NCBI RefSeq assembly: GCF_003385955.1
Contig: NZ_QRDW01000004.1
Location: forward strand, 248,001 to 312,000
Length of the DNA stretch: 64,000 bases
DNA from: Aestuariispira insulae
GTDB taxonomy: Bacteria; Pseudomonadota; Alphaproteobacteria; UBA8366; Aestuariispiraceae
Reading direction: 5' to 3'
In this document: positions 9,782 to 54,986 of the stretch, piece by piece
Layout of the letters: each line of letters begins with the position of its first letter
How positions within the stretch are numbered: the first letter of the stretch is position 1
The notes under the pieces: generated by a model
Databases searched by the model: none
What the model was told of the DNA's origin: nothing
Seen by the model: only the letters and a program-made list of their open reading frames with translations
Position numbers and translations under genes: made by a program

Positions 9782-9786
9782 TTTCT

Positions 9787-24071: not shown

Positions 24072-26420
24072 CTATTTGGTCGTTGCCACGTATACGCCAT
24101 CCCAGTCAGCGGGCAGGGGGGAAGACCGGAATTCCTCCATTCTTTGCCGATAAATCTCATAAAACTTGGCCATTTTGCCACCGAGCCTGGCTTTATTCTG
24201 CTCGCCAAGCTTCTCGGCTTCATCCCAGTTTTGGGCACGATACAATTCCAGGAACTGAGTATGTTTTTCTTCAAAAGCCTTGAATTCAGCCGGGTCCAGG
24301 TTTTCTCGCTGATCCAGCAGCGCAAAGATCCGCACCGCTTCCGTTTTGCCTTTTACCGCAATCAGGTCCAATTCCGCCGTGGCGAACTGATCGGTCACTT
24401 TGCTTTGTGTTTCTACCCCCAGCACAACATCGACACCATAACTCTTTGACTGGCCTTCCAAGCGAGATGCCAGATTGACCGAATCCCCCAGCACCGAATA
24501 GTCAAACCGCTGATCAGACCCCATATTACCGACCACGCAGTCGCCTGTATTGATACCTGCACCGATCTTAAGCGGCAGGAATTCAACCCCTTGTTCCTTT
24601 GCCTCGGCTTCACGTTCCGCATTCAAAACGTCAAGGGCTTTAAACATCGCCAGCGCAGCATCGCAGGCATGAACCTCCTGCTTCTCATCCTCCAGCGGGG
24701 CATTCCAAAAAGCCATGATGCAATCGCCCATATATTTGTCGATTGTGCCCCGGCGTTTCAAAATTTCATTGGTCAACGGGGTGAGCAGCCTGTTGATCAG
24801 CTTCGTTAACCCTTGTGGATCATCCTTGAAGCTCTCCGATATCGTGGTAAAGCCGCGCACGTCACAGAATAAAAGTGTCATGCGTTTCAACTCCCCGCCC
24901 AGGGTGAGTTGATCGGGGTTTTCGGCGAGTTGCTCCACCAAGTCCGGTGAAAGATATTGACTGAAAGCGCCGCGGACCTGGCGCTTTTCAACCGCATCAC
25001 GCATGTAGTTTGTAAATGTCAGAACAAAATAGGTCGCAAAAACCAGGATGCCGGAATAGGTAACGTCAATCAGTGTCTTTTTCTCTGTGAACATGTACCA
25101 ACTGCCGCCGACCAAAGTGCCTGCCGCCGCCAACAAACCGAGCAACGTCCAGATCGGACCGACACGAGGTATCAACAGGATCATGATAATCCCCGCCAAT
25201 ATCATCCCGATCATCTCAAAACCCGCCATTTCCACCGGATATTTGATGAAATTGTTGGTTAAAATAGTTTCGAGCAAATTGGCGTGAACCTCGATCCCGG
25301 GCAGCCTGGAATAGATCGGGGTCGACCGGATATCGAGCAGGCCGACAGCAGAAGTGCCAATGAGGATCAATTTCCCGGCAAGCCTTCCTGTTGGCAACTT
25401 GTTGTTAATCACATCCGAAGCAGAAACATAAAGCCTGCCAGAATTATCCGGCGTATTAAACCGGTCAGGTTCACTGAAATAGACCCAGACCCGACCTTTG
25501 CCATCAACCGGTATCTGATAGGCTCCCTGGGTAGTTTGAAGCCGCACATCCTGGATGCCACCTTGGTTCATGAAGGCAAAAATACTGTTTCCCTGGAAAG
25601 CGACGCGCAGCATTTCAACCGTTAGGGTCGGCTTGATCGCGCCTTCCACTTTCATCAGGATCGGAACCCGCCTGACGACACCGTCAACCTCTTCCTCAAC
25701 AGAAAACAGCCCGCGGCCAAAGGCGGATTGCTCAAGATCTTCAATATTGGCAACCAGGGATGTCTGGGTGAAAACATGGCTATCAAACAGCTTTGAGTCC
25801 GCGCCTTGAACCGCACGAACCCCTTTAAATGTTGTGCTCAATGCCAATTCAGAAGGTTTTTCCACGGCCTCCGTTTTTGTACCGGCCTGCCCGACAACTG
25901 TACGGAAGGTGCGCATGACCGACGCCATGACCGCATCGTTGCTGGGCAATGCGCGCAATTGCTCAACCGTTTCAGGGTCAGCACCCCGAATACTTTCGGC
26001 AATCCTGCCAGGAGATGTGCGATCAGGCTCTGCAAACACCATATCGAAACCGGCAACAACAGCACCCTGATCACGCAATGCTGCAAGCAGATCAGCCAGA
26101 ACCGTTCGCGGCCAGGGCCATTGCCCCAACTCGGCGAGGCTCTTTTCGTCGATATCGACAATGGCGACAGGGGTTTGCTCCCGGCTCAGACTCGGGCGTG
26201 GTTCAAGGCGATTATACAAATCGAACGTCTTTAACCGCAAAGCCTCGATTGGTTCAGGGTCAATCACTCTGATGACAATTCCCAGTGCCATGATCCCAAG
26301 GGCGGCAACGGTACCGATCTTGCTGATCCACCAGGCCGCACTTTTGCTGCCGGATTTTTTCCGGTTTTTGGAAGGCGCGCCACCTTGGGTGCCGCCAGTA
26401 TCGGATTGATCCCCTGACAT
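24072..26420 (-). CDS. CHASE2-domain adenylate/guanylate cyclase
   Basis: A 782-residue membrane cyclase. Residues 1-28 are a low-complexity cytoplasmic lead and residues ~35-55 a membrane helix. An extracytoplasmic CHASE2 domain follows (VDIDEKSLAELGQWPWPRT, FDMVFAEPD) up to about residue 390, then three closely spaced helices (~395-480), then a class III cyclase domain from about 505. The metal aspartates are in LLFCDVRGFTTIS (near residue 519) and YMGDCIMAFWNAP. VLGDSVNLASRLE is the cyclase C-terminal motif. A tail of ~100 residues follows. It would convert ATP to cAMP (or GTP to cGMP) on an unknown periplasmic signal. Confidence 0.92.
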   Translation of the reverse strand: MSGDQSDTGGTQGGAPSKNRKKSGSKSAAWWISKIGTVAALGIMALGIVIRVIDPEPIEALRLKTFDLYNRLEPRPSLSREQTPVAIVDIDEKSLAELGQWPWPRTVLADLLAALRDQGAVVAGFDMVFAEPDRTSPGRIAESIRGADPETVEQLRALPSNDAVMASVMRTFRTVVGQAGTKTEAVEKPSELALSTTFKGVRAVQGADSKLFDSHVFTQTSLVANIEDLEQSAFGRGLFSVEEEVDGVVRRVPILMKVEGAIKPTLTVEMLRVAFQGNSIFAFMNQGGIQDVRLQTTQGAYQIPVDGKGRVWVYFSEPDRFNTPDNSGRLYVSASDVINNKLPTGRLAGKLILIGTSAVGLLDIRSTPIYSRLPGIEVHANLLETILTNNFIKYPVEMAGFEMIGMILAGIIMILLIPRVGPIWTLLGLLAAAGTLVGGSWYMFTEKKTLIDVTYSGILVFATYFVLTFTNYMRDAVEKRQVRGAFSQYLSPDLVEQLAENPDQLTLGGELKRMTLLFCDVRGFTTISESFKDDPQGLTKLINRLLTPLTNEILKRRGTIDKYMGDCIMAFWNAPLEDEKQEVHACDAALAMFKALDVLNAEREAEAKEQGVEFLPLKIGAGINTGDCVVGNMGSDQRFDYSVLGDSVNLASRLEGQSKSYGVDVVLGVETQSKVTDQFATAELDLIAVKGKTEAVRIFALLDQRENLDPAEFKAFEEKHTQFLELYRAQNWDEAEKLGEQNKARLGGKMAKFYEIYRQRMEEFRSSPLPADWDGVYVATTK

Positions 26421-28460: not shown

Positions 28461-29273
28461 GTGCGGTCCGCTTTGCTAAATGTCCTGATTTTTCTAGTCA
28501 TCGGCTATGGCTTACTGTTGACGGGACTATACGCCTTTCAACGAAAACTGATGTATCATCCAGATCAAGACAGGCCGGTTCCAGCCCGTTACCGTCTTTT
28601 TGAAGCGCAATCTCTTGCAATACCCGGTCATGATACGCTGCCGCTGTTTAGTTGGTATCAGAAACCCTCTGCCTCTGAGAACAGGATCATTCTCTACTTT
28701 CACGGCAATGCGGGGACCATTGCCGGCCGTTCGAATAAAGCCCAGGAATTTGTGAGTAAAGGTTTCGGGGTTCTACTGCCATCATATCGCTATAACGCAG
28801 GAAACGGTGGCGAACCCAGTGAAACATCGCTGATTGCTGATGGTCTGTCCGCTTATCAATGGCTGCTGGAGCAGGGATATGCGCCGGATCAAATCATACT
28901 TTATGGTGAATCCCTTGGATCCGGGATAGCTGTTGCCATAGCCGCACAACGTGAAGCCGCGGCCGTCATCCTGGAAGCGCCATATTCCAGTGTCGCCGAT
29001 GTTGCCCAGGGCACATATTGGTTTTTGCCGGCCCGTTGGCTGGTGCATGATCCGTTTCCGTCAACAGACAGGATCGGCCGGATCACGGCGCCGATATTGA
29101 TTGTCCATGGTGCCAAAGACAGGACTATTCCTCTCAAATATGCCGAAAGGCTCTATCAAGCGGCGCCAGAAGGTGCGCAGTTTCAAATATTGCCGGATGC
29201 CGGGCACGCGGATCTATATGATCATGGCATGGCCGACGCCGTATTCGCGTTCCTATCAGGCTCTAATCCTTGA
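28461..29273 (+). CDS. Membrane-anchored alpha/beta hydrolase (BEM46/ABHD13-like)
   Basis: 270 residues. A single N-terminal hydrophobic helix (residues 3-22) anchors the protein. The hydrolase core has the oxyanion-loop segment ILYFHGNAGTIAGR, the nucleophile elbow LYGESLGSG, the acid in VHGAKDRTIP and the histidine in DAGHADLYD. This set is typical of BEM46/ABHD13 hydrolases, whose natural substrates are mostly unknown. The start is GTG at 28461. Its stop overlaps by 11 bp the end of the convergent molybdenum-cofactor gene. Confidence 0.85.
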   Translation: MRSALLNVLIFLVIGYGLLLTGLYAFQRKLMYHPDQDRPVPARYRLFEAQSLAIPGHDTLPLFSWYQKPSASENRIILYFHGNAGTIAGRSNKAQEFVSKGFGVLLPSYRYNAGNGGEPSETSLIADGLSAYQWLLEQGYAPDQIILYGESLGSGIAVAIAAQREAAAVILEAPYSSVADVAQGTYWFLPARWLVHDPFPSTDRIGRITAPILIVHGAKDRTIPLKYAERLYQAAPEGAQFQILPDAGHADLYDHGMADAVFAFLSGSNP

Positions 29274-30891
29274 GGCGTTCAAAGGCATTCCGGTCATCAA
29301 GGTCCACCAGGATACCGCCATCCTGCACCGGAACCTCATGAACCTGATCCGGATAGGCGCGGATGAGCTCACGGGCACCTTTGTCACCTCGAATTTCCAG
29401 CAATTCCGAGAAAAAACGCCGCCCGATCAGAACGGGATTGCCACGCCTGCCGTCATGAACTGGCACACAGATTTCCCGTTTTTCGTCCGGGTCAAATTCT
29501 ACAGCCAGTTTTTCCAAAGTGTCTGAGGAAACCATGGGCATATCCCCCAAACAAACCAAAACCCCGTCGCAATCCAGCGGCATATGGGAAATTCCCCTGC
29601 GCAGTGAACTGCTCATGCCATCGGCAAAATCCGGATTATGGATCAATTTGACGTCATGATCGGCCAGTAACGCCTCAACATCGCGATATTGATGCCCGGT
29701 AACAACAGATGGCTGGGCCATCCCGCAACTGGCCAAGGTCTCCATGATATGAAGGATCAAAGGTCGGTCCCGGAAAACCGTCAGAAGCTTGTTTCCGTTT
29801 TCCATGCGTGACGATCGGCCGGCTGCAAGAATCAAAGGCACAATATTTCTGGATTTTTTGACAGCGCCCCGATTGTGTTCCGCTACATGGCCACGGGGCA
29901 GGGGGCGTGTTGGGATTTCCTTCAACAGACCGCCAACCCCCATGGCGCGGATATCTCGGCCTGACACAGCAATGTCCGCACATAGGCGCTGTAAGACCCA
30001 GTCAAACCCGTTGATTTTGGGTGAACGCGCGCATCCGGGAATGCCAATCACCTGGGTTTTGTCAATATTTCCAAGCATGAGCAGATTTCCAGGATCCACC
30101 GGCATACCAAACTGTGCAACCGTGCCACCAGCAGCTTCCAATGCCGAAGGAATGATATCCCGCCGGTCAGTAATGGCGGAGGCACCGCTAACCAGAAAGA
30201 TATCAGGCTTATCTGATGCTAAATGCTCAATTTGTTCGCGGACAGCTTCCACCTCATGGGAACAACGTGTCTCCCCGATCAGGCTGCTACCCAATTCCTG
30301 AAGCCGCCAATCCAGGACCGATGCCGTCTTATCGAGAATTTTTTCCGTTGTGCCGGGTAGGGTGGTTTGAACCAGAAAAGCTCGCTTCCGTTGAAATGGC
30401 CTCAATTCAATGGTTTTCGGCTGACCGTAGGTGCGCCCCTCCCAGTCCAACAGGCTTTCTTTTGACGCTGCAAATGGAATGACCTTGATTGTTGCCACCA
30501 TCTGGTTTGGCACAACCTGTTCGAAGTTCGGCAAGGTAGCGACAGTGATCGCTTCATCAATCTGGTTCAGCTCGTTCAGCAATAATGTGTCGATGGCTAA
30601 TAGCCCGTGTTCTTGTGCAAGCAGGTTTACCCGTCCGGTATATGCCCGGCTTAACATTAAATTGCTGCCGACAATCGCTTTGGCGATTTGATCTGCGGCT
30701 AAATCCTCGTGACTGTCTTCGTCCTGCAATTCCGCCACGACCAAGGAAGCAACGCCCGATTGACGGATGAGGCTGAGATCGGTTTCTGAGAGGATATGGC
30801 CTTTTTTGAGCCGCCGCCCTTCCAATGCCAGACTATGCGCCAGGATGGCTCCTGGTCGGATGTTCGCAATCGTTTTTTTTGCAAAATCCAT
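29263..30891 (-). CDS. Molybdopterin-binding (MoCF) / MobA-like nucleotidyltransferase fusion
   Basis: A 542-residue two-domain protein. Residues ~1-330 resemble the molybdopterin-binding MoeA/MoCF type (IFLVSGASAITDRRDIIPSALEAAGGTV and GCARSPKINGFDWVLQRL). Residues ~345-540 form a MobA/MocA-type nucleotidyltransferase (LILAAGRSSRMENGNKLL, CLGDMPMVSSDTLEKL, GRRGNPVLIGRRFF). MocA makes molybdopterin cytosine dinucleotide, the cofactor of CO-dehydrogenase-family enzymes, so the fusion may insert metal and attach CMP. It follows the XdhC-like gene by 4 bp, at the end of the cox accessory genes. The start at 30891 removes ten residues that overlap the upstream gene. Confidence 0.85.
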   Translation of the reverse strand: MDFAKKTIANIRPGAILAHSLALEGRRLKKGHILSETDLSLIRQSGVASLVVAELQDEDSHEDLAADQIAKAIVGSNLMLSRAYTGRVNLLAQEHGLLAIDTLLLNELNQIDEAITVATLPNFEQVVPNQMVATIKVIPFAASKESLLDWEGRTYGQPKTIELRPFQRKRAFLVQTTLPGTTEKILDKTASVLDWRLQELGSSLIGETRCSHEVEAVREQIEHLASDKPDIFLVSGASAITDRRDIIPSALEAAGGTVAQFGMPVDPGNLLMLGNIDKTQVIGIPGCARSPKINGFDWVLQRLCADIAVSGRDIRAMGVGGLLKEIPTRPLPRGHVAEHNRGAVKKSRNIVPLILAAGRSSRMENGNKLLTVFRDRPLILHIMETLASCGMAQPSVVTGHQYRDVEALLADHDVKLIHNPDFADGMSSSLRRGISHMPLDCDGVLVCLGDMPMVSSDTLEKLAVEFDPDEKREICVPVHDGRRGNPVLIGRRFFSELLEIRGDKGARELIRAYPDQVHEVPVQDGGILVDLDDRNAFERLKD

Positions 30892-30895
30892 TCTG

Positions 30896-31603
30896 TTATA
30901 TCGTTTTCCGCCGAGGACCATGAAGAGACAAGGTCATTTCAGCCAAAATTGAAACAGCAATTTCAGCGGGGGATATGGCGCCGATATCCAGGCCGACCGG
31001 GGCCGCAATTCGACGGGTATCCGCTTCGCCAAAACCAATGGCTGCCAATCTTTCCACTCGCTTGCCATGGGTCTTCCGGCTGCCCAACGCCCCTAGATAA
31101 AAACACTCTGAACGTAATGCAAACTCAAGCGCCGGATCATCCAACTTTGGGTCATGGGTCAATGTAACAATCGCTGTTCGGGCATCAGGTGCCAGATCTG
31201 CCAAAGCCTCATCGGGCCAGCGTTTATCAAGTGGAATACCGGGAAAACGTTCTTGTGTTGCCCAGGCTCCCCTGGGATCAATCAGGGTAACCCCATATCC
31301 GGACATAACGGCCATTGGAGCCAGGAATTGCGAAATATGGACGGCACCGACAATCAGAAGCCGTTTGGGTGGATTATGCACTTGCAGAAAGTAGCGCTCA
31401 TCGGCCAACTCAAACTGGCACCCTTTGTCCTTTAGCAAAGCGTCGCGGCAAGCATCTGCCAGAATTTCGGGGAATTCAGTTTTGGACAGATTGGCATATT
31501 CCGACCACAAAACCTGATGCCCATCACCAAGCCTTGTCACCAGAACGCAGGGCAGTTTTCGTTCTTTCTCGCTGAGAAGATTATCAAGTGTTGAGAGCTT
31601 CAT
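30896..31603 (-). CDS. XdhC-family protein, Rossmann-domain part
   Basis: 235 residues. The C-terminal two-thirds is the XdhC Rossmann domain (RLLIVGAVHISQFLAPMA near residue 80, DPRGAWATQERFPG, TLTHDPKLDDPAL, YLGALGSRKTHGKR, PVGLDIGAISPAEIAVSILAE). XdhC/CoxF proteins hold and sulfurate the molybdenum cofactor before insertion. The usual XdhC N-terminal CoxI domain is not in this protein but is encoded by the preceding gene, whose stop overlaps this start by 4 bp. The first ~75 residues are poorly conserved. Confidence 0.85.
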   Translation of the reverse strand: MKLSTLDNLLSEKERKLPCVLVTRLGDGHQVLWSEYANLSKTEFPEILADACRDALLKDKGCQFELADERYFLQVHNPPKRLLIVGAVHISQFLAPMAVMSGYGVTLIDPRGAWATQERFPGIPLDKRWPDEALADLAPDARTAIVTLTHDPKLDDPALEFALRSECFYLGALGSRKTHGKRVERLAAIGFGEADTRRIAAPVGLDIGAISPAEIAVSILAEMTLSLHGPRRKTI

Positions 31604-31947
31604 ATTTCCAGTCTTTCAACAAAGACTTCAATTTCACCGCCGCAGGCGAGTCCGACCTCCCAGGCCATGGCGTCGGAGACACCAAAGGACAATAGCTTTG
31701 GCATGCCGCTTGTCATAATATCCAGTGCTTCAGTTACCACAGCCCCTTCGATACAGCCGCCCGAAACAGAACCGACAAATGAAGAATCCTCATTCACAAC
31801 CAATTGACTGCCAACCGGTCTTGGAGACGATCCCCACGTTTTTACAACAGTTGCGATCGCCACTTTTTTTCCGTCACCAAACCATCTGGCTGCTTGTTTC
31901 AAAACATCTTCCTCCAGGCCGAATGGCGGCGCGTTTTCCGTCATCAT
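31600..31947 (-). CDS. coxI: XdhC/CoxI-domain protein
   Basis: 115 residues comprising only the XdhC_CoxI domain (VAIATVVKTWGSSPRPVGSQ, GSVSGGCIEGAVVTEA, GLACGGEIEVFVE). Two cysteines, in SGGCIEG and GLACGG, are the conserved pair of the family. It is a molybdenum-cofactor maturation factor for CO-dehydrogenase-type enzymes. The gene overlaps coxE upstream and the Rossmann-type XdhC gene downstream (ATGA in both cases). ATG at 31947 or 31944 may be the start. Confidence 0.85.
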   Translation of the reverse strand: MMTENAPPFGLEEDVLKQAARWFGDGKKVAIATVVKTWGSSPRPVGSQLVVNEDSSFVGSVSGGCIEGAVVTEALDIMTSGMPKLLSFGVSDAMAWEVGLACGGEIEVFVERLEI

Positions 31948-33212
31948 GATGCTCTCTTTTTCCAGTCAGCCATTTCCAGATCCGACATGCATCCGTTCCC
32001 GCTCAAGGCCTGCCCAAGCTGGGCGACACTCACCAGGTTATGCACCGGCCTGAATTCATCAACATGCGCCATTATAGCCCGCGCGCCCCTAGATTTGGGT
32101 TCATATTGGTCAAATCGCAACAACGGATTGAGCCAAATTAGTTTGCGGCAGGATTTATGCAGCCGTTCCATCTCCTTGGAAACCCCCTCAGCGCCGGCAC
32201 GGTCCAAACCGTCAGTAATCAACAATACCACGGCCCCTTGACCCAACACACGCCGGGACCAGTCTTTGTTGAAACTCTGCAAGGCATCTCCAATTCGAGT
32301 GCCACCGGACCAGTCCTGAACTTGCTTGCTGATAAGATCAAGAGCCTGGTCGGGATCTTTGCGCCGTAGATGACGGCTAATGTTGGTCAGTCTGGTGCCG
32401 AATAAAAATGTATGCACCCGATCCCGGTCATTGCTCAGTGCATGAAGATAAAACAAAATGGTCCGGGCATAACGGTCCATCGAACCTGAAATGTCGCAAA
32501 GGACAACCAGCGGCGGTTTGACCGTGCGTTGCCGGCGATACTTGAGCCAGATTCCTTCGCCGCCACGCCTTGCGGAAGCACGCATGCTGTTACGCATATC
32601 CACTTTACGACCATTGGCATGTGCCTGAAACCGGCGTGTCTGATAGGGCTTCATCGGTAAGGCCAGTCGTTTCATGACAGCACGGACCGAAGCCAGTTCA
32701 TCCAGTGACATTTTTTCAAAATCCTTCTCCGCCAATTGTTCCCTAGCGGAATAGGTCAAGCTCGCGTCCAGTTCGATCCTGGTGTCTTCATCCTGGTCCG
32801 GCTGGTTTTGCCCCACCTGGCCAGAGGAATCAGAAGGGGCAAGGGCTTCGGCTATCCGACGCAGGATTTCATCTTCCTGTTGCAGCAATTCCTCGCCACG
32901 AAAGGTGGGCAAAAGCATCCCCATCATCCGATCCAATAGCTTTGGGTTACGCCAGAAAAAATGAAATGCCTGGTCGAAAATCAGTCTTTGATCCTGCCGA
33001 TTCACCAAGACGGCATGCAGCGCCCAATAGAAATCATCACGGTTTTCCAAACCAACCGCTTCAACAGCCTTTAAAGCATCAAGGATTTTGCCGGGTCCCA
33101 CCGGCAAACCAGCCTGTCGCAGCACCCGGCCAAAATGCATGATATTCTCGTCGAGACGGCCCTGTGCCTCTCCGGTTTCAGGCAAGCAAGGAAGTGTGGG
33201 GGGATTTTGCAT
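31944..33212 (-). CDS. coxE: CoxE-type VWA domain protein
   Basis: 422 residues. A helical N-terminus (IMHFGRVLRQAGLPVGPGKILDALKAV) and an acidic linker near residue 135 precede a von Willebrand A domain with the MIDAS motif LCDISGSMDRY at about residue 240 and LLITDGLDR. CoxE works with the MoxR-type ATPase CoxD to mature the CO dehydrogenase active site (shown for Afipia/Oligotropha carboxidovorans). The start overlaps the coxD stop by one base (TAATG). Confidence 0.9.
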   Translation of the reverse strand: MQNPPTLPCLPETGEAQGRLDENIMHFGRVLRQAGLPVGPGKILDALKAVEAVGLENRDDFYWALHAVLVNRQDQRLIFDQAFHFFWRNPKLLDRMMGMLLPTFRGEELLQQEDEILRRIAEALAPSDSSGQVGQNQPDQDEDTRIELDASLTYSAREQLAEKDFEKMSLDELASVRAVMKRLALPMKPYQTRRFQAHANGRKVDMRNSMRASARRGGEGIWLKYRRQRTVKPPLVVLCDISGSMDRYARTILFYLHALSNDRDRVHTFLFGTRLTNISRHLRRKDPDQALDLISKQVQDWSGGTRIGDALQSFNKDWSRRVLGQGAVVLLITDGLDRAGAEGVSKEMERLHKSCRKLIWLNPLLRFDQYEPKSRGARAIMAHVDEFRPVHNLVSVAQLGQALSGNGCMSDLEMADWKKRAS

Positions 33213-34138
33213 TATCCGGATCTCTGGCCCACTTGCAGAGCTGCATTGACCTCATCAAGGATACGGGCTGCTTCGGAGCCTTTAATGCGCGCGATATCAT
33301 CTTGATATTTAAGCAAAGTACCCAACGTATCGTTAATCACATCCGGCGACAGGGTCAAATGGTCAAGCTGTACCAGCGCATGCGCCCAATCGATAGTTTC
33401 CGCGACGCCCGGCAGTTTAAACAAATCCATATCCCGCAGCGTTTGAACAAAAGCGACGATCTGGGTGCTTAGCTTTTGCGGCATATCCGGCGCTTTGAAT
33501 GACAGGATCTCAAGCTCCCGTTCTGTATCCGGATAATCAACCCAATAATAGAAACAGCGCCGCTTGATCGCATCATGGATCTCGCGAGTACGGTTAGAGG
33601 TAATAATGACCAGAGGCGGCTCTTGTGCCTTGATGGTGCCAAGCTCCGGGATTGTAACCTGGAAATCGGACAAAACTTCCAGAAGGAAAGCTTCGAACGG
33701 CTCGTCTGTGCGATCCAATTCATCAATCAACAGAATAGGCGGACCTTCCGGTGTTTTATCCAGCGCATGCAGGATCGGCCGCTTCACCAGGAATTTTTCT
33801 GAAAACAGATCTGAACTCAGTTTTTCCTTATCCCCGGTTCCTGTGACCTCCGCCAGGCGGATTTCAACCATCTGGCGGGCGTAATTCCATTCGTAAACCG
33901 AAGAAGCCACATCAAGGCCTTCATAGCATTGCAACCGTACGAGCGGCCGCTTTAACTGCAGGCTCAGAACTTTGGCAATCTCGGTTTTACCAACACCGGC
34001 TTCCCCCTCAAGAAATAGAGGCCTGCCCAGACTTAAAGATAAATAAAGCGCAGTCGCCAGCGATCGGTCGGCTACATATCGACCATCTCGCAGCAATTGG
34101 CCGGTTTCATCAACGGAATCGGGTAGGGTACTCATCAT
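33212..34138 (-). CDS. coxD: CoxD-type MoxR AAA+ ATPase
   Basis: 308 residues. A MoxR-family AAA+ ATPase with Walker A GEAGVGKTE at about residue 43, the DVASSVYEWNYARQM segment, Walker B ILLIDELDRTDEPFEAFLLE and sensor 1 LVIITSNRTREIHDAIKRR. CoxD is a chaperone needed for copper and sulfur insertion into CO dehydrogenase. The longer frame to 34147 begins with TTG; ATG at 34138 or 34135 is more likely. The gene lies 99 bp after the CNB-protein gene and overlaps coxE. Confidence 0.9.
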   Translation of the reverse strand: MMSTLPDSVDETGQLLRDGRYVADRSLATALYLSLSLGRPLFLEGEAGVGKTEIAKVLSLQLKRPLVRLQCYEGLDVASSVYEWNYARQMVEIRLAEVTGTGDKEKLSSDLFSEKFLVKRPILHALDKTPEGPPILLIDELDRTDEPFEAFLLEVLSDFQVTIPELGTIKAQEPPLVIITSNRTREIHDAIKRRCFYYWVDYPDTERELEILSFKAPDMPQKLSTQIVAFVQTLRDMDLFKLPGVAETIDWAHALVQLDHLTLSPDVINDTLGTLLKYQDDIARIKGSEAARILDEVNAALQVGQRSG

Positions 34139-34237
34139 CCTGTCCAATGATTATTATTATGTTTCATCGGCTTATTATCCCGCATGGTGAAATCGGGTGC
34201 AACAGCTGGAATAGGTGAGAGCCTCAATTCCAGCAGG

Positions 34238-36007
34238 CTATTTCATCGCATCAATTTCACGCTCTGCCGCATGCCGGTTGCGCCTGACCAATTCAACCAT
34301 GCTGGATTGATGCTTGTCGTGAAAGACGGCTTCTGCTCCCCGAAAACAGTCGATCGATAGCGCCAACTGTTCTTTATCCTCGGATAGAGAGCCCAGCAGA
34401 TAACGAGACGTGCCGATATTATTCTGTGTGCGCGCCCATCCCAGCGGATTATGGTCCTGAGAGCGCACTTCCAGAGCCGACAGACAGACCTTGATGGACC
34501 ATTTCAGCAGATCAGTTTTGTGGGACAGCCGCCCAAACAGTTGAAGGATCTGTCCCAATCCATTCATGACATCAGCCCATTGATCGGGGAGTGCCTGACG
34601 ATCACTTATCGCAAGCGCTGCCTGAAATGCTTCTACGCCTTGACGACATCTTTCAATGTCACAATCCAGAACTGCTGTCCGATAATGGATTGCGCCCAGC
34701 CGGGCCAGGGCAGTCAATGCTTGCACCGGCACGATTTTCGGATCCAGCAATTCGCTTGCCTCATGGCAGGCTTCTGCCGCAGCCCTGAGAATTTCCTCGC
34801 TTCGGCCCCGTTCACCCATGCTGCTTAGAATCACGGCCATGTGAAGCAAAATAGTTGCGTTTTCAATAGGATAATCCGGATCGCTCAACTGGGATGCAAG
34901 CTTGAATGCGGCGGATGCTTCCACAAGCCATTCTGCTTTCTGACATAAAATTGAGGCTTTCGCGGCCGTATTACCATAGCAGGAAAGCATCCGGACATAT
35001 TGCTGTTTCGAACACCGGCTTTGATCTATCGCGCCTGTTTTTAGCGCTTCTTGCATCGTATCCGGCAATAAGTGCGAGATAGCTTTTGCAGCTTCTTCAC
35101 CGCTCATTTGGGTTCCAGCCAATACCCACGCGGCAAACAGATCACCTGCCGGTCCTTCAAAATCAACAGGCAACTCCATCTGATCGAAGATGGATACCCC
35201 GCCCAGGCGACCTTCTTCATCCAGCCACCGACTAACAATCCTAATTGAGATCATGGCATCTTCTGCCATACCATCATCCACCATGGCATGCAGAAGGACA
35301 GCAGCATCCTTTTCCGCTAGCATGCGCCTGGCATTGGCCGCGGCCTTTTGCATCAGGACAGGATCCGCAAAGGAGCCAGCTTTGCCGACCTGTTTCTCCT
35401 GTCCGATAACCGTCAGGCCATAACAATTGCGCAGACGGTCCGCCAGCATACCGGTAATGCGTCCATCCCGGTCACCCAGAACCATCGGCAGGATCACTCG
35501 TCCGTCGGCAGCGGATTGTCGAGTTTGCAATTCCGGTCTGACACTGCCGCTAGCAGCGGTCTTGTCTTTTTCATCTTCGGAGGAACCATCTTTTAAATTG
35601 TTGGTATTATTAGAAATATCCTCACCGGACTGCAACAGGACTGGACTGCCTTCCGCTGGTAACTGCCCCCGCAGACGTTGAACCAGGATGCCCATCACCT
35701 CAGCCGCGAAGCGTGAATTTTCTTCCAGCTCCCGAAGGAAATCTTCTTTTTCAATTCGGTCCAGGGTGGCTTCGGTTTTAGTGATCAAAGTAGCACTGCG
35801 TGGTTGACCATCGATCAACCCCATCTCACCGAGCAATTCGCCAGCACCAAGTACCGTCAGCGGTCGGTCTTCGCCATCGATATTCTTGAAGACCTCAACG
35901 CTTCCAGTATTCAACAAGAACGCGCAATCGCTGGGATCCCCCTCGGAGAACAGCGTCTCACCTTCCGGTAGCTTGATCCGGGATTTTTTCACCCCATGCA
36001 AATTCAT
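34238..36007 (-). CDS. Cyclic nucleotide-binding domain protein with C-terminal TPR-like repeats
   Basis: 589 residues. Residues 12-115 are a cNMP-binding domain; its phosphate cassette LLGEMGLIDGQPRSATL keeps the glutamate (61) and the Arg-Ser pair (70-71) needed to hold the nucleotide. Residues ~120-165 are a low-complexity linker. Residues ~170-300 form a domain I do not recognise (ILPMVLGDRDGRITGMLADRL, SIRIVSRWLDEEGRLGGV). Residues ~330-580 are helical with TPR-like spacing (GWARTQNNIGTSRYLLGSL, WADVMNGLGQILQLFG). There is no DNA-binding or enzymatic domain. It sits between the coxM terminator and coxD on the same strand, so it is part of the cox gene set and probably a cAMP-responsive scaffold or sensor (inference). 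Confidence 0.75.
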   Translation of the reverse strand: MNLHGVKKSRIKLPEGETLFSEGDPSDCAFLLNTGSVEVFKNIDGEDRPLTVLGAGELLGEMGLIDGQPRSATLITKTEATLDRIEKEDFLRELEENSRFAAEVMGILVQRLRGQLPAEGSPVLLQSGEDISNNTNNLKDGSSEDEKDKTAASGSVRPELQTRQSAADGRVILPMVLGDRDGRITGMLADRLRNCYGLTVIGQEKQVGKAGSFADPVLMQKAAANARRMLAEKDAAVLLHAMVDDGMAEDAMISIRIVSRWLDEEGRLGGVSIFDQMELPVDFEGPAGDLFAAWVLAGTQMSGEEAAKAISHLLPDTMQEALKTGAIDQSRCSKQQYVRMLSCYGNTAAKASILCQKAEWLVEASAAFKLASQLSDPDYPIENATILLHMAVILSSMGERGRSEEILRAAAEACHEASELLDPKIVPVQALTALARLGAIHYRTAVLDCDIERCRQGVEAFQAALAISDRQALPDQWADVMNGLGQILQLFGRLSHKTDLLKWSIKVCLSALEVRSQDHNPLGWARTQNNIGTSRYLLGSLSEDKEQLALSIDCFRGAEAVFHDKHQSSMVELVRRNRHAAEREIDAMK

Positions 36008-36080: not shown

Positions 36081-36111
36081 AAAAACAGGCTCCGGTAGTG
36101 ACCGAAGCCTG
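36081..36111 (-). terminator. Rho-independent terminator after coxM
   Basis: CAGGCTCCGGT (36086-36096) pairs with ACCGAAGCCTG (36101-36111) with one internal mismatch. On the minus strand it is followed by TTTTTCC. It divides the cox region into a structural and an accessory transcription unit. Confidence 0.85.
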
Positions 36112-36143
36112 CTCTCATAGAATGAAACCGAGGAAAATGCAGC

Positions 36144-36941
36144 TTAACCGCAGGCTTCCACAGCCCGCTTCCCCATGACCCGGATCAGATTTTCCCGATA
36201 ACCGGGACTGCCATGGATATCCTCAAGAAGGTCCGGTAGATGAACCATTTCGATATCAAGGGAGGAGGCCGAAAAACTGCCGTCTAGAGCCGACTCGAAA
36301 GCATCAACCCGGAAAACGCCGTCAGCCCCGGCTCCGGTCACAGCAACCCTGACGCCGCTGGACATCTTGGCCACCATCACACCGACCAAGGCATAGCGCG
36401 AAGCCGGATTGGGGAACTTCTGATAACAGGCCTTTTCCGGCTTGGGAAATCGGATGGCTGTGATGATTTCATGCTCATCCAGCGCTGTTTCAAACAGGCC
36501 GGTGAAAAAGTCATCTGCCACAATTTCACGCTTGTCAGTCACAATTACCGCCCCAAGACCAAGACAGGCCGCTGGATAATCCGCTGCAGGATCATTATTG
36601 GCAATAGAGCCGCCGATCGTGCCCAGATTACGCACCTGCGCATCGCCGATATTGGAGGCCAGCCCCGCCAGAGCCGGTATTGCCGATTGAACCTCTGCTG
36701 AATTAGCGACCATGGCATGGGTAGTCATGGCCCCAATGGTGACAGTATCGCCATCGACAGAGATGCCGCAAAGCTCACTGCAACCGCCAAGGTCAATAAG
36801 GTCACTGGGAGAGGCCAACCGCTGCTTAAGCGTTGGCAGCAATGTCTGGCCGCCGGCCACAATCTTGCCGTCACTGGCATTCCTCAGGGCTTGCTCCGCA
36901 TCAGAGACGGAACTGGCTTTATGATAGTTGAATTCATACAT
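36144..36941 (-). CDS. coxM: CO-dehydrogenase-family FAD subunit (CoxM type)
   Basis: A 265-residue flavoprotein of the CoxM/CutM family. FAD-binding segments are IVAGGQTLLPTLKQRLA near residue 30 and LGTIGGSIANNDPAADYPA near residue 106. It carries electrons from the 2Fe-2S clusters of CoxS to quinone or another acceptor. It lies 15 bp after coxL, and the S-L-M order is that of form II clusters. The length is slightly below the usual 285-290. Confidence 0.93.
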   Translation of the reverse strand: MYEFNYHKASSVSDAEQALRNASDGKIVAGGQTLLPTLKQRLASPSDLIDLGGCSELCGISVDGDTVTIGAMTTHAMVANSAEVQSAIPALAGLASNIGDAQVRNLGTIGGSIANNDPAADYPAACLGLGAVIVTDKREIVADDFFTGLFETALDEHEIITAIRFPKPEKACYQKFPNPASRYALVGVMVAKMSSGVRVAVTGAGADGVFRVDAFESALDGSFSASSLDIEMVHLPDLLEDIHGSPGYRENLIRVMGKRAVEACG

Positions 36942-36956
36942 GATCCATCTCCCTCC

Positions 36957-39326
36957 TTATTCCGCGGCCATGGCGGTTTTTGCACCGTTGAGCGCATTCC
37001 AGACGGCGTTTGGTGTGGCCGGCATGGCAATATCCCGAACGCCCTGATCCCAGAGCGCATCCACGACCGCATTAATCACGGCTGGTGGAGAGCCGATGGC
37101 ACCCACTTCACCGCAGCCTTTCACCCCCAGCGAGTTATGGGTGCAAAGCGTAGTGGTGGTGCCGACCTTGAAATCCGGCAGGTCATCGGCACGCGGCATG
37201 CAATAATCCATATAGGATCCGGTCAGCAGTTGTCCGTCATCATCATAACGGGCACCTTCCATCAAAGCTTGGCCGATCCCTTGCGCCAACCCGCCATGGA
37301 TCTGCCCCTCCACAATCATCGGATTGATCACTCGGCCGACATCATCCATGGCGGTCATGGCCACAACCTCGACAACGCCGGTATCCGGGTCAATTTCCAC
37401 CTCGCAGATATGACAGCCGGCGGGATAGGTGAAGTTCATCGGGTCATAGAAGGCTTGTTCCTCTAACCCGGGTTCCAGCTCGTCATGGGGGAAGTTATGA
37501 GGCACATAGGCGGTCAGCGCCACATCGCCAAAAGCCATTTCCCGATCCGTGCCGGCCACAGTGAATTTACCATCCTTGAATTCGATATCGGCACTGTCAG
37601 CTTCCAGCACATGGGCTGCGATCTTCTTGGATTTGGTGATGACTTTGTCCAGCGCCTTCATGATGGCCTCACCGCCGACCGCAAGTGAACGGGAGCCATA
37701 GGTCCCCATGCCGAACGCCACTTTGTTGGTGTCACCGTGGCTGATATCTACATTCTCGATCGGGATACCGAGACTGTCGGAAACCAGTTGGGCGAAGGTG
37801 GTTTCATGCCCCTGTCCATGGCTGTGGGAACCGGTATAGACCGTCACCGATCCTGTGGGATGCACACGGATATTGGCTGATTCAAAAAGCCCTGCGCGTG
37901 CCCCAAGCGAGCCGACAACAGCGCTTGGGGCAATGCCGCACGCTTCCACATAAGTGGAATAGCCCAGGCCCCGCAACTTGCCCCGGCTGGCCGCTTCCGA
38001 CCGTCTTGCCTGGAAACCGGCTACATCGGCAAGCTCTTCGGCCCGGTCCAAGGTGGCCGTGTAATTGCCTGAATCATATTGCAGTGCCACCGGTGTCTGA
38101 TAGGGGAAGGCGTCTTCCGGGATGAAGTTTTTGCGCCGGATTTCCGACTGGCTCATCCCTGTTTCCCGGGCCGCCCGATCCACCAGCCGTTCCAGCAGGT
38201 AGGTTGCCTCCGGCCGACCGGCGCCACGATAGGCATCCACCGGCACAGTATTGGTGAAAACCGCCTTCACATTGCAATAAATGGCAGGTGTCGTGTAAAC
38301 ACCGGCCAACAAAGTGGCATGCAGATAGGTTGGAACACAGGTGGAGAAGGTGGAGAGGTAGGCACCCATATTGGCCTTTGTGTAACAGCGCAGGCCGATG
38401 AATTTTCCGTCTTGATCCAAAGCCAGCTCCGCCTTTGTCACATGATCGCGACCATGGGCATCGGACAGAAAAGATTCCGAGCGTTCCGCGCGCCATTTGA
38501 TTGGACGGCGAACCTTTTGCGCTGCCCAGGTGACAATTGCTTCTTCCGCATAATGAAAAATCTTGGAGCCAAAGCCGCCGCCAACATCGGGGGCAACGAC
38601 CCGCAGTTTATGTTCCGGGATCTGGAGCACGAATGCCCCCATCAAGAGCCGGATCACATGCGGGTTTTGGCTGGTGGTATAGAGGGTATATTCGCCCGTT
38701 GCGGAATCATATTCGCCGATGGCGGCCCTGGGCTCCATGGCATTGGGCACAAGGCGGTTATTGACGATATCCATCGAGGTCACATGATGGGCGCTTTCAA
38801 AGATTGCATTAACCTGAGCCTCTTCGCCAATTTCCCAGTCATAACAAAGATTTCCGGGCGCTTCATCATGAACCAGAGTGGATTGATCCAGCGCGGTTGC
38901 CAGGTCGGCGACGGCCGGCAGCTCTTCATAATCCACATCAATCAGCTCTGCCGCGGCCCGTGCCTCAGCATAGCTTTCGGCGATCACGATCGCCACCTGG
39001 TCGCCCACATGGCGGACCTTGCCCTGGGCCAGGGCCGGGTGAGGGGGCTCGTTCATAGGTGAGCCATCCTTGTTATTCACGCCCCATCCGCAAGGGATTG
39101 AACCGACCTGCATGTCATCGCCGGTGAAAATCGCCACCACACCGGGTGCCGCTTTGGCTTCAGCCAGATCGATGCCATTGATTTTCGCGTGGGCAACCGG
39201 GCTGCGCAGGATATAACCATATGTCTGGCCCGGACGGTTGATGTCATCCGTATAGGTTCCCTGGCCGGTGAGAAAACGGAAATCTTCCTTGCGCCTGACG
39301 GACGCGCCAATTCCAGTATCATTCAT
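36957..39326 (-). CDS. coxL: CO-dehydrogenase-family molybdenum subunit, form II (CoxL type)
   Basis: A 789-residue xanthine-oxidase-family large subunit. The active-site loop reads AYRGAGR at about residues 364-370, the form II signature; form I enzymes have AYxCSFR with the copper-binding cysteine. Cofactor-binding segments include [26 protein letters not shown] and [10 protein letters not shown], whose glutamate is the catalytic base. Form II members have been reported to oxidise CO weakly in some bacteria, but the true substrate is unsettled. It lies 15 bp after coxS. Confidence 0.93.
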
Positions 39327-39341
39327 GGTATCCGCCTCCCT

Positions 39342-39815
39342 TTATTCCGCAGCTTTCATGGCATTGCTGCCAGCACGAACGGATTTGACGATGTTGTGGT
39401 ATCCGGTACAGCGGCAGATGTTGCCTTCCAGCCCGTCTCGGATTTCCGTGTCCGTGAGATCAGGATTTTTGGTCACCAGGTCAACAGCGCTCATCACCAT
39501 GCCGGGGGTACAGAACCCGCATTGCAAACCGTGATTTTCCCGGAAAGCCGCCTGCATTGGGTGCAGGTCGTCCCCATTGGCCAGCCCTTCAATGGTAGTC
39601 ACTTCACATCCCGCTGCCTGAACAGCCAGCATGGTGCAGCTTTTAACCGACTTGCCATCTACATGGATCACACAGGCCCCGCATTGGCTGGTGTCACAGC
39701 CTACATGGGTTCCGGTAAGACCAATATTTTCACGAAGATACTCAACCAACAGCGTGCGCGGCTCAACATCCGCTGAGACCGGACGGCCATTGACCGTCAT
39801 GCTCACATTCGTCAT
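39342..39815 (-). CDS. coxS: CO-dehydrogenase-family 2Fe-2S subunit (CoxS type)
   Basis: A 157-residue iron-sulfur subunit. The N-terminal plant-ferredoxin cluster uses CDTSQCGAC and the later C in KSCTM, and the C-terminal helical cluster uses CGFCTPGM and CRCTGY. This is the standard two-cluster small subunit. The start is preceded by AGGGAGAA. It heads the S-L-M unit, and 183 bp separate it from coxG on the same strand. Confidence 0.95.
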
Positions 39816-39998: not shown

Positions 39999-40661
39999 TC
40001 ATTGATAAAATGCGTAAACAAGCACCGTTGCGACCGCCACAAGGCCAATGACCCAAACCGCAGGATTGATACCAGGTGCCGGCATTGGCGACTGTGGAAT
40101 TGGGGCAGGATGCGGCATAGCATGCATCGTTTCTTCGGATGCACGATCCGGTTCATTTTCAATTGCCTTCGGAGCCGCCATTGCCGGATTAGGCTGGGCC
40201 GCCATATTTTCATCTGGCGCGCGCTTTTTCACTTCCTCGGTAAAAGTGGCAAAAAAGTCGCCGGCAAGCTTCTTGGCGCTGGCATCCACCAACCGGGACC
40301 CGATCTGGGCCAGTTTGCCACCAACTTTGGCATCAACCTCATAACGGAGCAGGGTCCCGCCTTCTGTTTCACTAAGTGAAACATCCGCCGCTCCCTTTGC
40401 AAAACCGGCAGCGCCGCCTTTGCCTTCACCAGTGATCGTATAGCTGTTTGGCGCATCCACATTGGATAATGTCACCACGCCGCTGAATTTCGCCTTCACC
40501 GGACCGATTTTCGCCTGCACCGTCGCTTCATAGCCATTTTCCCCGTTTGCGACCAAGTCCAGGCAACCGGGAATGCAGGCTTTGAGCACTTCCGGATCAT
40601 TCAAGCCGTCCCAGACCTGCTGCCGTGGGATTGCAATCAATTCTTCGCCTGCCATCTTCAT
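39999..40661 (-). CDS. coxG: CoxG-like SRPBCC protein with C-terminal membrane anchor
   Basis: 220 residues. Residues 1-145 are a CoxG/SRPBCC domain (MKMAGEELIAIPRQQVWDGL, NDPEVLKACIPGC, IGPVKAKFSGVVTL, LIQIGSRLVDASAKKLAGDFF-like region). A Pro/Ala/Met-rich linker (~150-195) leads to one C-terminal membrane helix (AVWVIGLVAVATVLVYAFY). CoxG anchors CO dehydrogenase to the cytoplasmic membrane in carboxydotrophs. It is the first gene of the cox region in the direction of transcription. Confidence 0.88.
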   Translation of the reverse strand: MKMAGEELIAIPRQQVWDGLNDPEVLKACIPGCLDLVANGENGYEATVQAKIGPVKAKFSGVVTLSNVDAPNSYTITGEGKGGAAGFAKGAADVSLSETEGGTLLRYEVDAKVGGKLAQIGSRLVDASAKKLAGDFFATFTEEVKKRAPDENMAAQPNPAMAAPKAIENEPDRASEETMHAMPHPAPIPQSPMPAPGINPAVWVIGLVAVATVLVYAFYQ

Positions 40662-40863
40662 CTCGGGACTCCCTGGTGCTAATCTGTGACTTGGGTCCGG
40701 ACATCTGTTGCGCCGGTTGACTGAAAAAAGGTAATCGCCTCCCGCATGGGGTGCAAGTGGGGGAATAAATTATTGATCACAAGCGCGACTCGCGCCCTTT
40801 CTGCATGGTATACAGTAGCATTTGTCAAAACCATTGGGCGTTTCCGGGAGAATCCTTAGCGTA

Positions 40864-41400
40864 ATGACCACCCCAGCTGTTCCATCCGCCATCGATGTCG
40901 CAAACTGGTTTGCGGAGATTGCCCGCAAGGAAGATATCTATCTCCAGCCGCAGAAACTCCAGCGCCTGCTCTATATTTCTCAAGGATCCTATGCAGCAAT
41001 GAATTATGGGCGCAAACTCATGCCCGCGACCTTTGTTGCGGACGAAACGGGCCCGCTGGAACCCAATGTCTATCGCGTTTTTGAATTGGGACGGCCAAAG
41101 ATCACCGCCTATAAAATGCCGCCCGAGATCGAGAATTTTCTGGCCCGGATCTGGCGCAAATATTGCCATCATTCTACAGACTATATCAATCAGCAGATCC
41201 AGTATCACGAGATCTATATGGAGGCGATCCGCAAAGGCCATTTTGAGGAAATCCCGTTTGATAAAATCGTAAGGTTCTTTTCCGGTCGCGAGAAACCGAA
41301 AATCCAGCGCAAGCAGAAGAAGGTGGTTACGGCTGATGGGCGCAAGCTTGAAAAATGGTTGCCGACAGCCCAGGCAACATCCCGCCCAACCAATCGATAA
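40864..41400 (+). CDS. Panacea / SocA-like antitoxin-domain protein
   Basis: 178 residues. DVANWFAEIARKED, QPQKLQRLLYISQGSYAAMNYGRKLMPATFVADETGPLEPNVY and FLARIWRKYCHHS are the Panacea (DUF4065) pattern found in the Caulobacter antitoxin SocA and in GepA. The C-terminal 40 residues are basic. Panacea proteins neutralise many unrelated toxins and are normally encoded beside one. No toxin-like partner is adjacent: coxG is divergent and an antiporter gene follows 165 bp later. The start at ATG 40864 is preferred, as the frame to 40822 begins with TTG and non-family residues. Confidence 0.78.
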   Translation: MTTPAVPSAIDVANWFAEIARKEDIYLQPQKLQRLLYISQGSYAAMNYGRKLMPATFVADETGPLEPNVYRVFELGRPKITAYKMPPEIENFLARIWRKYCHHSTDYINQQIQYHEIYMEAIRKGHFEEIPFDKIVRFFSGREKPKIQRKQKKVVTADGRKLEKWLPTAQATSRPTNR

Positions 41401-41449
41401 TCCTATACCCATTGCAATCTGTGGCAGAGGGCCGATGGCATATTTTATT

Positions 41450-53595: not shown

Positions 53596-54849
53596 TCAAA
53601 TCCCCTGGCAAGATTGCAGCGAGAATACTTCCTGAGGTTCTTCCACCCCTCGCATTTTGTGAATGCCTCTGGACACGGTCTCCACATCTGCAATGGCCGC
53701 GAAATCCTTAGACATTAACAAGGGACAGCCCACATCCTTGGTCAACCCTTCAAGGCGTGCCGTTCTGTTCACTGCAGGCCCCATGACAGTGAAATCAAGG
53801 CGTGCCGGCGCACCGACATTACCGTAAATGACGGTGCCTTCATGCAGGCCGACGCCAAACCGGATCTCAGGTTTTCCCTGTTTCTCCCTGCCTTCGTTAA
53901 AAGATGCGAGGGACAGGAATGCTCTTTCTGCGGCCTTAAGGGCGGCACGGCAGGCTTCTTTGGGGCCGCCGGCTGTTTCAGCGGTGAAGACGATTAACAT
54001 AGCATCGCCGATAAAGCGTAGCACTTCACCGCCAAATTCATTGACGGCGTCAAACACAAATTCAAAATATGTGTTCAACACATCAAGCAATTCCTCAGCA
54101 GGGAGGCTCTCGGTCAGTGCAGTGAAATCCCGCAGATCGCTGAACCACAAGGCCGCTTCGATCAACTCTCCGTCGCCCCGCTTGATCTGGCCACGCAACA
54201 CGCGCTGTCCCGTCCTGGCTCCGACATAGGTATTCAATAATTCCACAGACATGCTTCGCATGGCCAAAACCTCGACTTTTGGCTGAAGGAAGTCACACAT
54301 CCTGTTGAATTTACTTATGTCCTGGTCGCAAAACCCAACTGGCCGATCTGTGGAGATAAAAACAGTGTGATACTCGCCGCTGGCAGCCCGCATGGGAATA
54401 CCGACGTAATCTGTAACGCCTTGTACATGCAGTTCCCGCAACACCGGATGTTCTTTATCAAAATCCAGCTCATCCATACGATAGCGCTGCAATTGCTGAG
54501 TATTGACAACCTTTTCCGCCGGGCTGCCGATCCATGCACCCGTTTCGCGAATGCCATGCGGGACCGAAACCTGTTCAATATGGTCATCGGTTTTGGTCCA
54601 GATAAAGGTAATCGCCGCAATTTGTGGATGAATGGTCCAAAAGGAATAACGGATTCGATTAATCGGCGCGCCGACCGCCAGCAATTCATCCACAAGTCCA
54701 CGCAACAATTCCGTGGCATCCAGCGTTTTTGCCGAAGAACTGAACATCCAGTCCAAAACAGGGGAAAGTGCCCAGCCGTCGGTTTCGCGCAACAGCAGTC
54801 TTGCCTGATCCTCCGGTGCAAGAATGTTGGGAATCTGATGGCTGTCCAT
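53596..54849 (-). CDS. Class III adenylate/guanylate cyclase with GAF-like N-terminus
   Basis: A 417-residue soluble cyclase. Residues ~20-190 resemble the GAF-like sensor region of alphaproteobacterial cyclases (WMFSSSAKTLDATELLRGLVDELL, LHVQGVTDYVGIPMRA). The catalytic domain begins near residue 225. The metal aspartates lie in WFSDLRDFTAL (near residue 234) and RFIGDAMLIVF, and VMGPAVNRTARLEGL is the C-terminal motif. The start at 54849 has AGGA six bases upstream. It is the second cyclase of the window. Its neighbours give no clue to the signal. Confidence 0.9.
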   Translation of the reverse strand: MDSHQIPNILAPEDQARLLLRETDGWALSPVLDWMFSSSAKTLDATELLRGLVDELLAVGAPINRIRYSFWTIHPQIAAITFIWTKTDDHIEQVSVPHGIRETGAWIGSPAEKVVNTQQLQRYRMDELDFDKEHPVLRELHVQGVTDYVGIPMRAASGEYHTVFISTDRPVGFCDQDISKFNRMCDFLQPKVEVLAMRSMSVELLNTYVGARTGQRVLRGQIKRGDGELIEAALWFSDLRDFTALTESLPAEELLDVLNTYFEFVFDAVNEFGGEVLRFIGDAMLIVFTAETAGGPKEACRAALKAAERAFLSLASFNEGREKQGKPEIRFGVGLHEGTVIYGNVGAPARLDFTVMGPAVNRTARLEGLTKDVGCPLLMSKDFAAIADVETVSRGIHKMRGVEEPQEVFSLQSCQGI

Positions 54850-54986
54850 AGTCATTCCTAGCAACCCCGGCAGGAAAGCCCTGGGAGAGCCGGGTGCTGG
54901 ATCTCAGGGCTATGGAATCATTCCTTCAAGATAAGCGTTTTTTGTTGATTTTCCAGCAAACTTACAGATTTTCACCTGTCGGAGTA

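Follow-up and report, generated by a model that had tools for sequence, protein, structure and literature searches.

The 64,000-nucleotide stretch of the Aestuariispira insulae genome analyzed here (the window) encodes, directly upstream of coxD, a protein in which a cyclic-nucleotide-binding domain (CNBD) is followed by a predicted TolB_N-like alpha/beta domain and a TPR-like helical tail. The gene is an optional accessory beside the cox cluster and not a standard part of it. Its product, on balance, probably acts as an optional cyclic-nucleotide-gated scaffold and not as a required maturation part.

A CNBD gene in a putative form II cox cluster

The CNBD-TolB_N-TPR gene (34238-36007, minus strand) is read from an ATG start through 589 uninterrupted codons. 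The minus-strand order is coxG, coxS, coxL, coxM, the CNBD-TolB_N-TPR gene, coxD, coxE, two XdhC pieces and a MoCF/MocA fusion:

39999-40661, minus strand: coxG-like protein (Pfam)
39342-39815, minus strand: coxS-like 2Fe-2S subunit (Pfam)
36957-39326, minus strand: coxL-like large subunit with the AYRGAGR (form II) motif (Pfam and motif)
36144-36941, minus strand: coxM-like FAD subunit (Pfam)
33212-34147, minus strand: coxD-like MoxR-type AAA+ ATPase (Pfam, NCBIfam)
31944-33212, minus strand: coxE-like vWA protein (Pfam)
30896-31947, minus strand: XdhC N-terminal and C-terminal domains in two genes, 31600-31947 and 30896-31603 (Pfam)
29263-30921, minus strand: MoCF-binding and MocA-like cytidylyltransferase (Pfam, NCBIfam)

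The name coxD was given from the AAA match together with the place of the gene before the VWA_CoxE gene. For the form I enzyme of Oligotropha, maturation roles of CoxD and CoxE are described in the available text of PMC4240915. The large subunit in the window carries AYRGAGR at residue 365 and the subunit genes run S-L-M; both are marks of form II cox in the available text of PMC13203968, and both were checked for the window only. A form I CO dehydrogenase was rejected, as the AYXCSFR motif and M-S-L order of that form are absent and AYRGAGR and S-L-M are found instead. The preliminary description had located the gene between coxM and coxD, all on one strand, within a 'CO-dehydrogenase cluster'. 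The location holds, while the name is too strong given the form II marks: the cluster encodes a xanthine oxidase-family molybdenum hydroxylase whose type is form II cox, and it is not a proven CO dehydrogenase.

Domain architecture and predicted fold

AlphaFold2 modeled the protein with a mean pLDDT of 81 (four-row alignment) as three ordered parts and a low-confidence linker:

34238-36007, minus strand: CNBD-TolB_N-like-TPR protein, 589 aa (open frame, Pfam, AlphaFold2)
35666-35986, minus strand: CNBD, residues 8-114 (Pfam, structure matches), with key residues E61, M62, D66, R70, S71, R111, L112 and R113
35504-35665, minus strand: linker, residues 115-168 (pLDDT below 50 over 113-166)
35108-35503, minus strand: alpha/beta domain, residues 169-300, predicted fold of the TolB N-terminal / FlgT / PelC type
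34244-35098, minus strand: TPR-like helical superhelix, residues 304-588 (sub-threshold TPR_12 and TPR_10; AlphaFold2 helix pairs)

Domain limits in the model were 8-114 for the CNBD, about 168 for the end of the linker, 170-298 for the alpha/beta domain and 304-588 for the successive helices. PF00027 matched the CNBD over residues 11-97 (E=1e-21, 77.2 bits versus a curated Pfam cut-off of 27.5). In line with the preliminary description, no HTH or catalytic domain was found: none was matched by Pfam or NCBIfam at E values up to 0.01, and NCBIfam CRP-type and similar models matched the CNBD portion alone. A CRP/FNR transcription factor was rejected, as no C-terminal HTH was found in Pfam or NCBIfam and TPR-like helices follow the CNBD in the model. 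Neither Pfam nor NCBIfam has a model dedicated to the CNBD-TolB_N-TPR arrangement.

TPR profiles in Pfam matched the tail below their cut-offs (TPR_12, 22.5 bits versus 30.1; TPR_10, 16.7 versus 27.5). In the AlphaFold2 model the tail, mostly at pLDDT above 85 in ten-residue blocks, forms tandem antiparallel helix pairs, with helices 15-22 residues long over 334-588 as read from its list of structural elements; the TPR-like tail proposed earlier is thus borne out as a predicted superhelix.

The middle domain, previously left as unrecognized, has no sequence-family match in Pfam or NCBIfam but can be recognized through its predicted fold. Because a Foldseek search with the whole model gave CNBDs among the 50 rows listed, this domain was predicted separately, with a pLDDT of 80.6. 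Its ten best Foldseek rows were PelC or TolB (probability 0.90-0.99), none with E below 0.001. By VIA, it aligned with FlgT at Z 10.0 (119 residues, 3.0 A), with TolB at Z 8.2-9.6 (Z 9.6 over 120 residues at 3.6 A) and with tRNA-synthetase anticodon domains at Z 7.3-8.1. We assign it as TolB_N-like with moderate confidence on the basis of the predicted fold.

Residues of the nucleotide pocket

The phosphate cassette had been described as intact, and E61, R70 and S71 are indeed present and identical in the two cox-linked orthologues aligned. The nearest single-domain solved relative of the whole CNBD by sequence, and also the top fold match, was the cAMP/cGMP-binding domain of Bd1971 (6hq3, E=2e-16); with residues 55-120 alone, other CNBDs such as Clr (7pza) outscored it. 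In the available text of PMC6717892, the contact and switch residues of Bd1971 are Glu58, Met59, Arg67/Ser68, Arg108, Leu109 and the Asp63-Arg110 pair. In the window, E61/M62/D66/R70/S71/R111/L112/R113 have the same spacing as Bd1971 E58/M59/D63/R67/S68/R108/L109/R110, a correspondence drawn from spacing and the residue numbers of that paper and not from a letter-by-letter alignment. Stretches of equal length were aligned to Bd1971, namely 13-114 to 7-108 and 2-60 to 50-108.

All eight pocket letters are identical in the three cox-linked proteins. Two relatives away from cox also retain the pocket, with E, R-S and RLR all kept in the L085 protein and a single change, Ser to Asn, in G085; an intact pocket is therefore not special to the cox-linked clade. 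The remaining nine CNBD-bearing relatives aligned have lost some or all pocket letters, and these degenerate pockets in distant relatives imply that the fold by itself is no proof of ligand binding. The relatives at L077, L078, L079, L080 and L081 have lost Arg-Ser and, in four of five, Glu, with the three-domain layout retained. For the protein in the window, cyclic-nucleotide sensing by the CNBD is likely, judging from Bd1971 as its nearest relative.

Occurrence among relatives

Among 43 genomes of the order, three (G000, G009 and G011) have full-length copies (match to both middle and tail) and four others have TPR-only matches. The gene is directly upstream of coxD in all three carriers, which corresponds to 3 of 33 coxD-coxE clusters, and was seen in no other. 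These 33 clusters are those of the genomes whose coxD match reached 2.5e-133 or better; the ten genomes left out comprise five with 47-51% identical relatives alone and five with no match at 1e-40. Among the 33, the slot upstream of coxD falls beyond the contig end in G026, and the contigs of G031, G034 and G023 end within 1.4-2.5 kb; none of these four genomes has a full-length match elsewhere. Apart from the three carriers, no further CNBD protein was found near cox clusters in the stretches examined. According to the preliminary description, no such protein belongs to the classic cox set. Thirty of the 33 clusters show none, and a core cox maturation gene, expected in most clusters and not in three, was rejected.

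The slot itself varies. coxM immediately precedes coxD in 8 of 33 clusters and different ORFs lie there in most others, in a survey in which overlapping ORFs cost some coxD labels (G004, G002 and G020). Similar-sized ORFs fill the slot in several relatives. The carriers likewise differ in what lies upstream of the gene: the window has coxM there, G009 a DUF1318 gene and G011 a 131-codon ORF in a similar place. In G009 (L068 3448-7352, L009 173-568), genes for a TPR protein, a YdbH-like protein and a DUF1318 protein lie between coxM and the CNBD-TolB_N-TPR gene. Such variability would be expected if the gene were a bystander tolerated in the space that separates two transcription units, working in an unrelated cAMP pathway and owing its position to common descent with several losses. 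The YdbH-like and DUF1318 genes sharing the slot in G009 point the same way. We regard this bystander explanation as possible, though unlikely.

Beyond the order, at least 12 of 385 genomes in a class sample contained a three-domain match in one frame, with the first three candidates per genome scored. Two of the 12 are cox-linked (G000 and G009) and ten are not, the match in G073 being weak (E=4e-81). A CoxE match was absent from all ten non-cox-linked genomes of this sample, four of which are 63-87% complete. With G011 and L085 added, full-length relatives occur in at least 14 genomes, three cox-linked and 11 away from cox, and 10 of these 11 genomes have no detectable CoxE. In the genome of L085 (G782), cox genes are on another contig and the gene is absent from 15.5 kb there. 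The L085 copy (8408-10656, a Rhodospirillales relative) is split into two overlapping frames, possibly through an assembly error. Among the matches listed for a phylum sample of 398 genomes, again with the first three candidates per genome scored, G000 and G085 were the only genomes with a full-length one. The contig scan for relatives used two peptide patterns and covered the best 80 of 135 loci.

This distribution bears on the proposal that the gene provides cAMP-dependent control of maturation or assembly of the hydroxylase. The sensing part of that proposal stands as likely, with Bd1971 as the best relative; the maturation part is not supported, with no such gene seen in 30 of 33 clusters and, at the family level, homologues mostly away from cox (11 of 14 genomes), which is the outcome that the preliminary description had set as refuting it, although those relatives are distant and may differ in function. 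In its most specific form, the proposal has the protein join the CoxD-CoxE (MoxR-vWA) chaperone pair as a third component, which responds to cAMP and controls metal/cofactor maturation of the Mo hydroxylase. Its position directly before coxD in all three carriers, despite differing upstream neighbors, argues for such a component, as does the recruitment of a third component by MoxR-vWA pairs elsewhere, described in the available text of PMC7159879. The 30 clusters in which the gene was not seen indicate, however, that the CoxD-CoxE pair does not need this protein, and the absence of a CoxE match from all ten of the other class-sample genomes also speaks against it. We hold the third-component explanation to be doubtful, more so than that of a bystander.

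Phylogeny, conservation and composition

In a 14-row tree the three cox-linked proteins group together as a clade with support 1.000, a point in favor of the third component, and the carriers are not sisters on the CoxD+CoxE tree (read without support values), which fits the bystander explanation. Taken together, the two trees imply an old gene with repeated losses or, alternatively, transfer of the gene into one and the same position. One clade in the same slot before coxD further indicates that linkage to cox is not accidental. GC and GC3 match those of the neighboring genes and give no sign of recent horizontal arrival, a candidate that was rejected; this composition is also in line with a resident bystander.

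Compared with G009, identity was 35% for the CNBD-TolB_N-TPR protein, 76% for CoxD, 57% for CoxE, 80-81% for CoxL and 48% for MoCF/MocA. The protein is the least alike among the genes from coxG to moeA/mocA, which counts against a role as third component of the chaperone pair; the sole lower score was that of an unconfirmed ORF beyond coxG (40825-41412, 31% versus L084). Nevertheless, the position has been kept in two lineages whose proteins have diverged this far, which hints at some benefit of the location and speaks against a bystander. Within the protein, identity to G009 was 45% in the C-terminal TPR half, 41% in the CNBD, 30% in the first TPR half and 29% in the middle domain.

Candidate transcription signals around the gene

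Two candidate signals flank the gene in the window:

36081-36116, minus strand: terminator-like hairpin with T tail, after coxM and before the CNBD-TolB_N-TPR gene (z -4.55)
34174-34202, minus strand: weak promoter-like TTGCAC-17-GATAAT before coxD (found by eye; not returned by the promoter scan)

The hairpin has 16 pairs and a T5 tail. A scan of 8.5 kb gave eight terminator-like sites overall versus a shuffle mean of 9.1, which is no excess, and the promoter scan of 8.5 kb returned no promoter-like site in the gap before the CNBD-TolB_N-TPR gene. Of 24 loci that have coxM, 14 show such a hairpin behind it, G009 and G011 among them, a count made without a control. Between the gene and coxD, no terminator-like hairpin was found in the three carriers.

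A second element, TTGAGR-N16-TATATCGT, has seven occurrences across 480 kb of cox loci, all of them just before coxD (7 of 33 loci: L194, L196, L197, L198, L202, L225 and L226). It is shared by the carriers G009 and G011, where it lies between the CNBD-TolB_N-TPR gene and coxD, and by five non-carriers, including two with nearly the same sequence at this place; the counterpart in the window is the weak one listed above. The element was absent from 20 shuffles (one strand, single-base content kept), a control after the fact because the element had been spotted by eye in the same data. Promoters typically keep such a constant distance, here 16 bases, while the spacer sequence itself changes, and the element is probably a conserved coxD promoter. 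Together with the hairpin after coxM, the promoter-like element before coxD in two carriers suggests that the CNBD-TolB_N-TPR gene may be transcribed as a separate unit. That coxD has a promoter-like element of its own in two of three carriers weakens the case for a third component.

Class III cyclases in and around the window

The preliminary description drew on two class III cyclases in the same window, and both were found:

24072-26420, minus strand: CHASE2 class III cyclase, a context gene syntenic with cox
53596-54864: second class III cyclase

The host genome has 13 class III cyclase domains, for which two in 64 kb has a Poisson probability of about 0.013 before correction for having looked. 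A Fer2 2Fe-2S domain is present in two class III cyclases of the host (L320 2498-4189 and L323 849-2519). At 12 of 22 loci the CHASE2 cyclase keeps synteny with cox, lying on the same strand and 1.3-7.3 kb beyond moeA/mocA (24072-26420 on the minus strand of the window, and L286, L290, L292, L294, L297-L300, L302, L303, L305 and L314). The count required 5.8 kb or more of sequence downstream, which left out 11 of the 33 loci; G031 entered with 6.3 kb, and as three positives lie 6.7-7.3 kb away its absence there is not certain.

This synteny suggests some old link between cyclase and region and counts somewhat for cAMP-dependent maturation, including the third-component explanation. It is, however, not associated with the CNBD-TolB_N-TPR gene, the cyclase being found in one of three carriers versus 11 of 19 non-carriers (Fisher p=0.57, with little power). 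Up to a distance of 17 kb from cox, G009 and G011 have no CHASE2 cyclase, and in the window the CHASE2 cyclase is separated from the cox cluster by genes on the opposite strand. Across these cox-locus stretches, no ORF had the second cyclase as its best match. Some rhizobial cyclases may have TolB-like plus TPR tails, which our literature search did not confirm. In the host, no match to the TolB_N-TPR module was found in ORFs of at least 200 codons across 11 of the 13 cyclase regions, the two in the window being left out.

Membership in a Pycsar-like anti-phage system, with the CNBD protein as effector and a cyclase of the window as PycC, was also considered. PADLOC models for PycTIR and TIR effectors matched the CNBD (best E=7e-9) and those for PycC matched both cyclases (E=8e-27 and 2e-22), as would be expected from shared domains. 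The effector matches span residues 12-119 at most, no TIR or other effector domain was found by Pfam or PADLOC, and unrelated genes separate the cyclases, about 8 and 18 kb distant, from the CNBD gene. A Pycsar effector was rejected on account of this restriction of the PADLOC match to the CNBD portion and the lack of a fused effector domain, and we consider such a system highly improbable.

Proposed role

No enzymatic or DNA-binding part was found, so the protein must act through binding a partner. The analysis shows the gene, its residues, predicted fold, position and distribution; from these we infer cAMP binding, dimerization, partner docking and possible transcription of the gene on its own. 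By analogy with Bd1971, the N-terminal CNBD would bind cAMP (cGMP is possible), probably as a dimer. The ligand would shift or expose the TolB_N-like domain and the TPR-like superhelix beyond the flexible linker, and the superhelix would dock a partner protein; in the simplest model, cAMP on the CNBD dimer changes access to the TolB_N-TPR part. In this bacterial family, the gene is placed behind the last cox structural gene and ahead of coxD, and it may form a transcription unit by itself.

The scaffold reading overlaps in probability with the third-component and bystander explanations, which are two ways of supplying the partner. Control of CoxD/CoxE maturation is possible; CoxD/CoxE as partner would suit both the general habit of MoxR-vWA pairs to acquire third components (PMC7159879) and the maturation roles of the two proteins in Oligotropha (PMC4240915). 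A fuller version, in which the syntenic CHASE2 cyclase would supply the cAMP that tunes form II hydroxylase activation through a second-messenger switch on CoxD-CoxE in one alphaproteobacterial lineage, strikes us as improbable. A same-strand position inside a gene cluster says little about whether function is shared. Should the partner be CoxD/CoxE, the protein would offer a route for second-messenger control of metal-cofactor insertion. If not, it belongs to a small family of alphaproteobacterial cyclic-nucleotide adaptors whose intact-pocket and degenerate-pocket branches can be compared.

Comparison with known systems

The CNBD-TolB_N-TPR arrangement was not named in the titles and abstract openings of the literature searched, and its parts resemble several known systems. 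The middle domain as predicted appears similar in topology and size to the TolB N-terminal / FlgT / PelC group, with identity of 4-14% in the rows listed. TolB, FlgT and PelC are envelope proteins. Unlike in that group, the domain here is placed between a CNBD and TPR-like repeats.

The CNBD shares the contact-residue spacing of Bd1971, the Bdellovibrio cAMP-sensing c-di-GMP phosphodiesterase described in the available text of PMC6717892. The output of Bd1971 is an EAL enzyme, whereas here a TolB_N-like domain and TPR-like repeats follow and no enzyme was found. The ternary MoxR-vWA systems (VMAP, iSTAND), as the available text of PMC7159879 presents them, likewise have a third protein encoded beside the pair, and cNMP cyclase domains occur in some of them. 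In contrast to the VMAP and iSTAND systems, no VMAP or STAND domain was found here, and no such third gene was seen with the CoxD-CoxE pair in 30 of 33 clusters. Finally, the window has the S-L-M order and AYRGAGR motif in common with form II cox clusters as set out in the available text of PMC13203968, to which the CNBD-TolB_N-TPR gene is an addition, present in 3 of 33 clusters.
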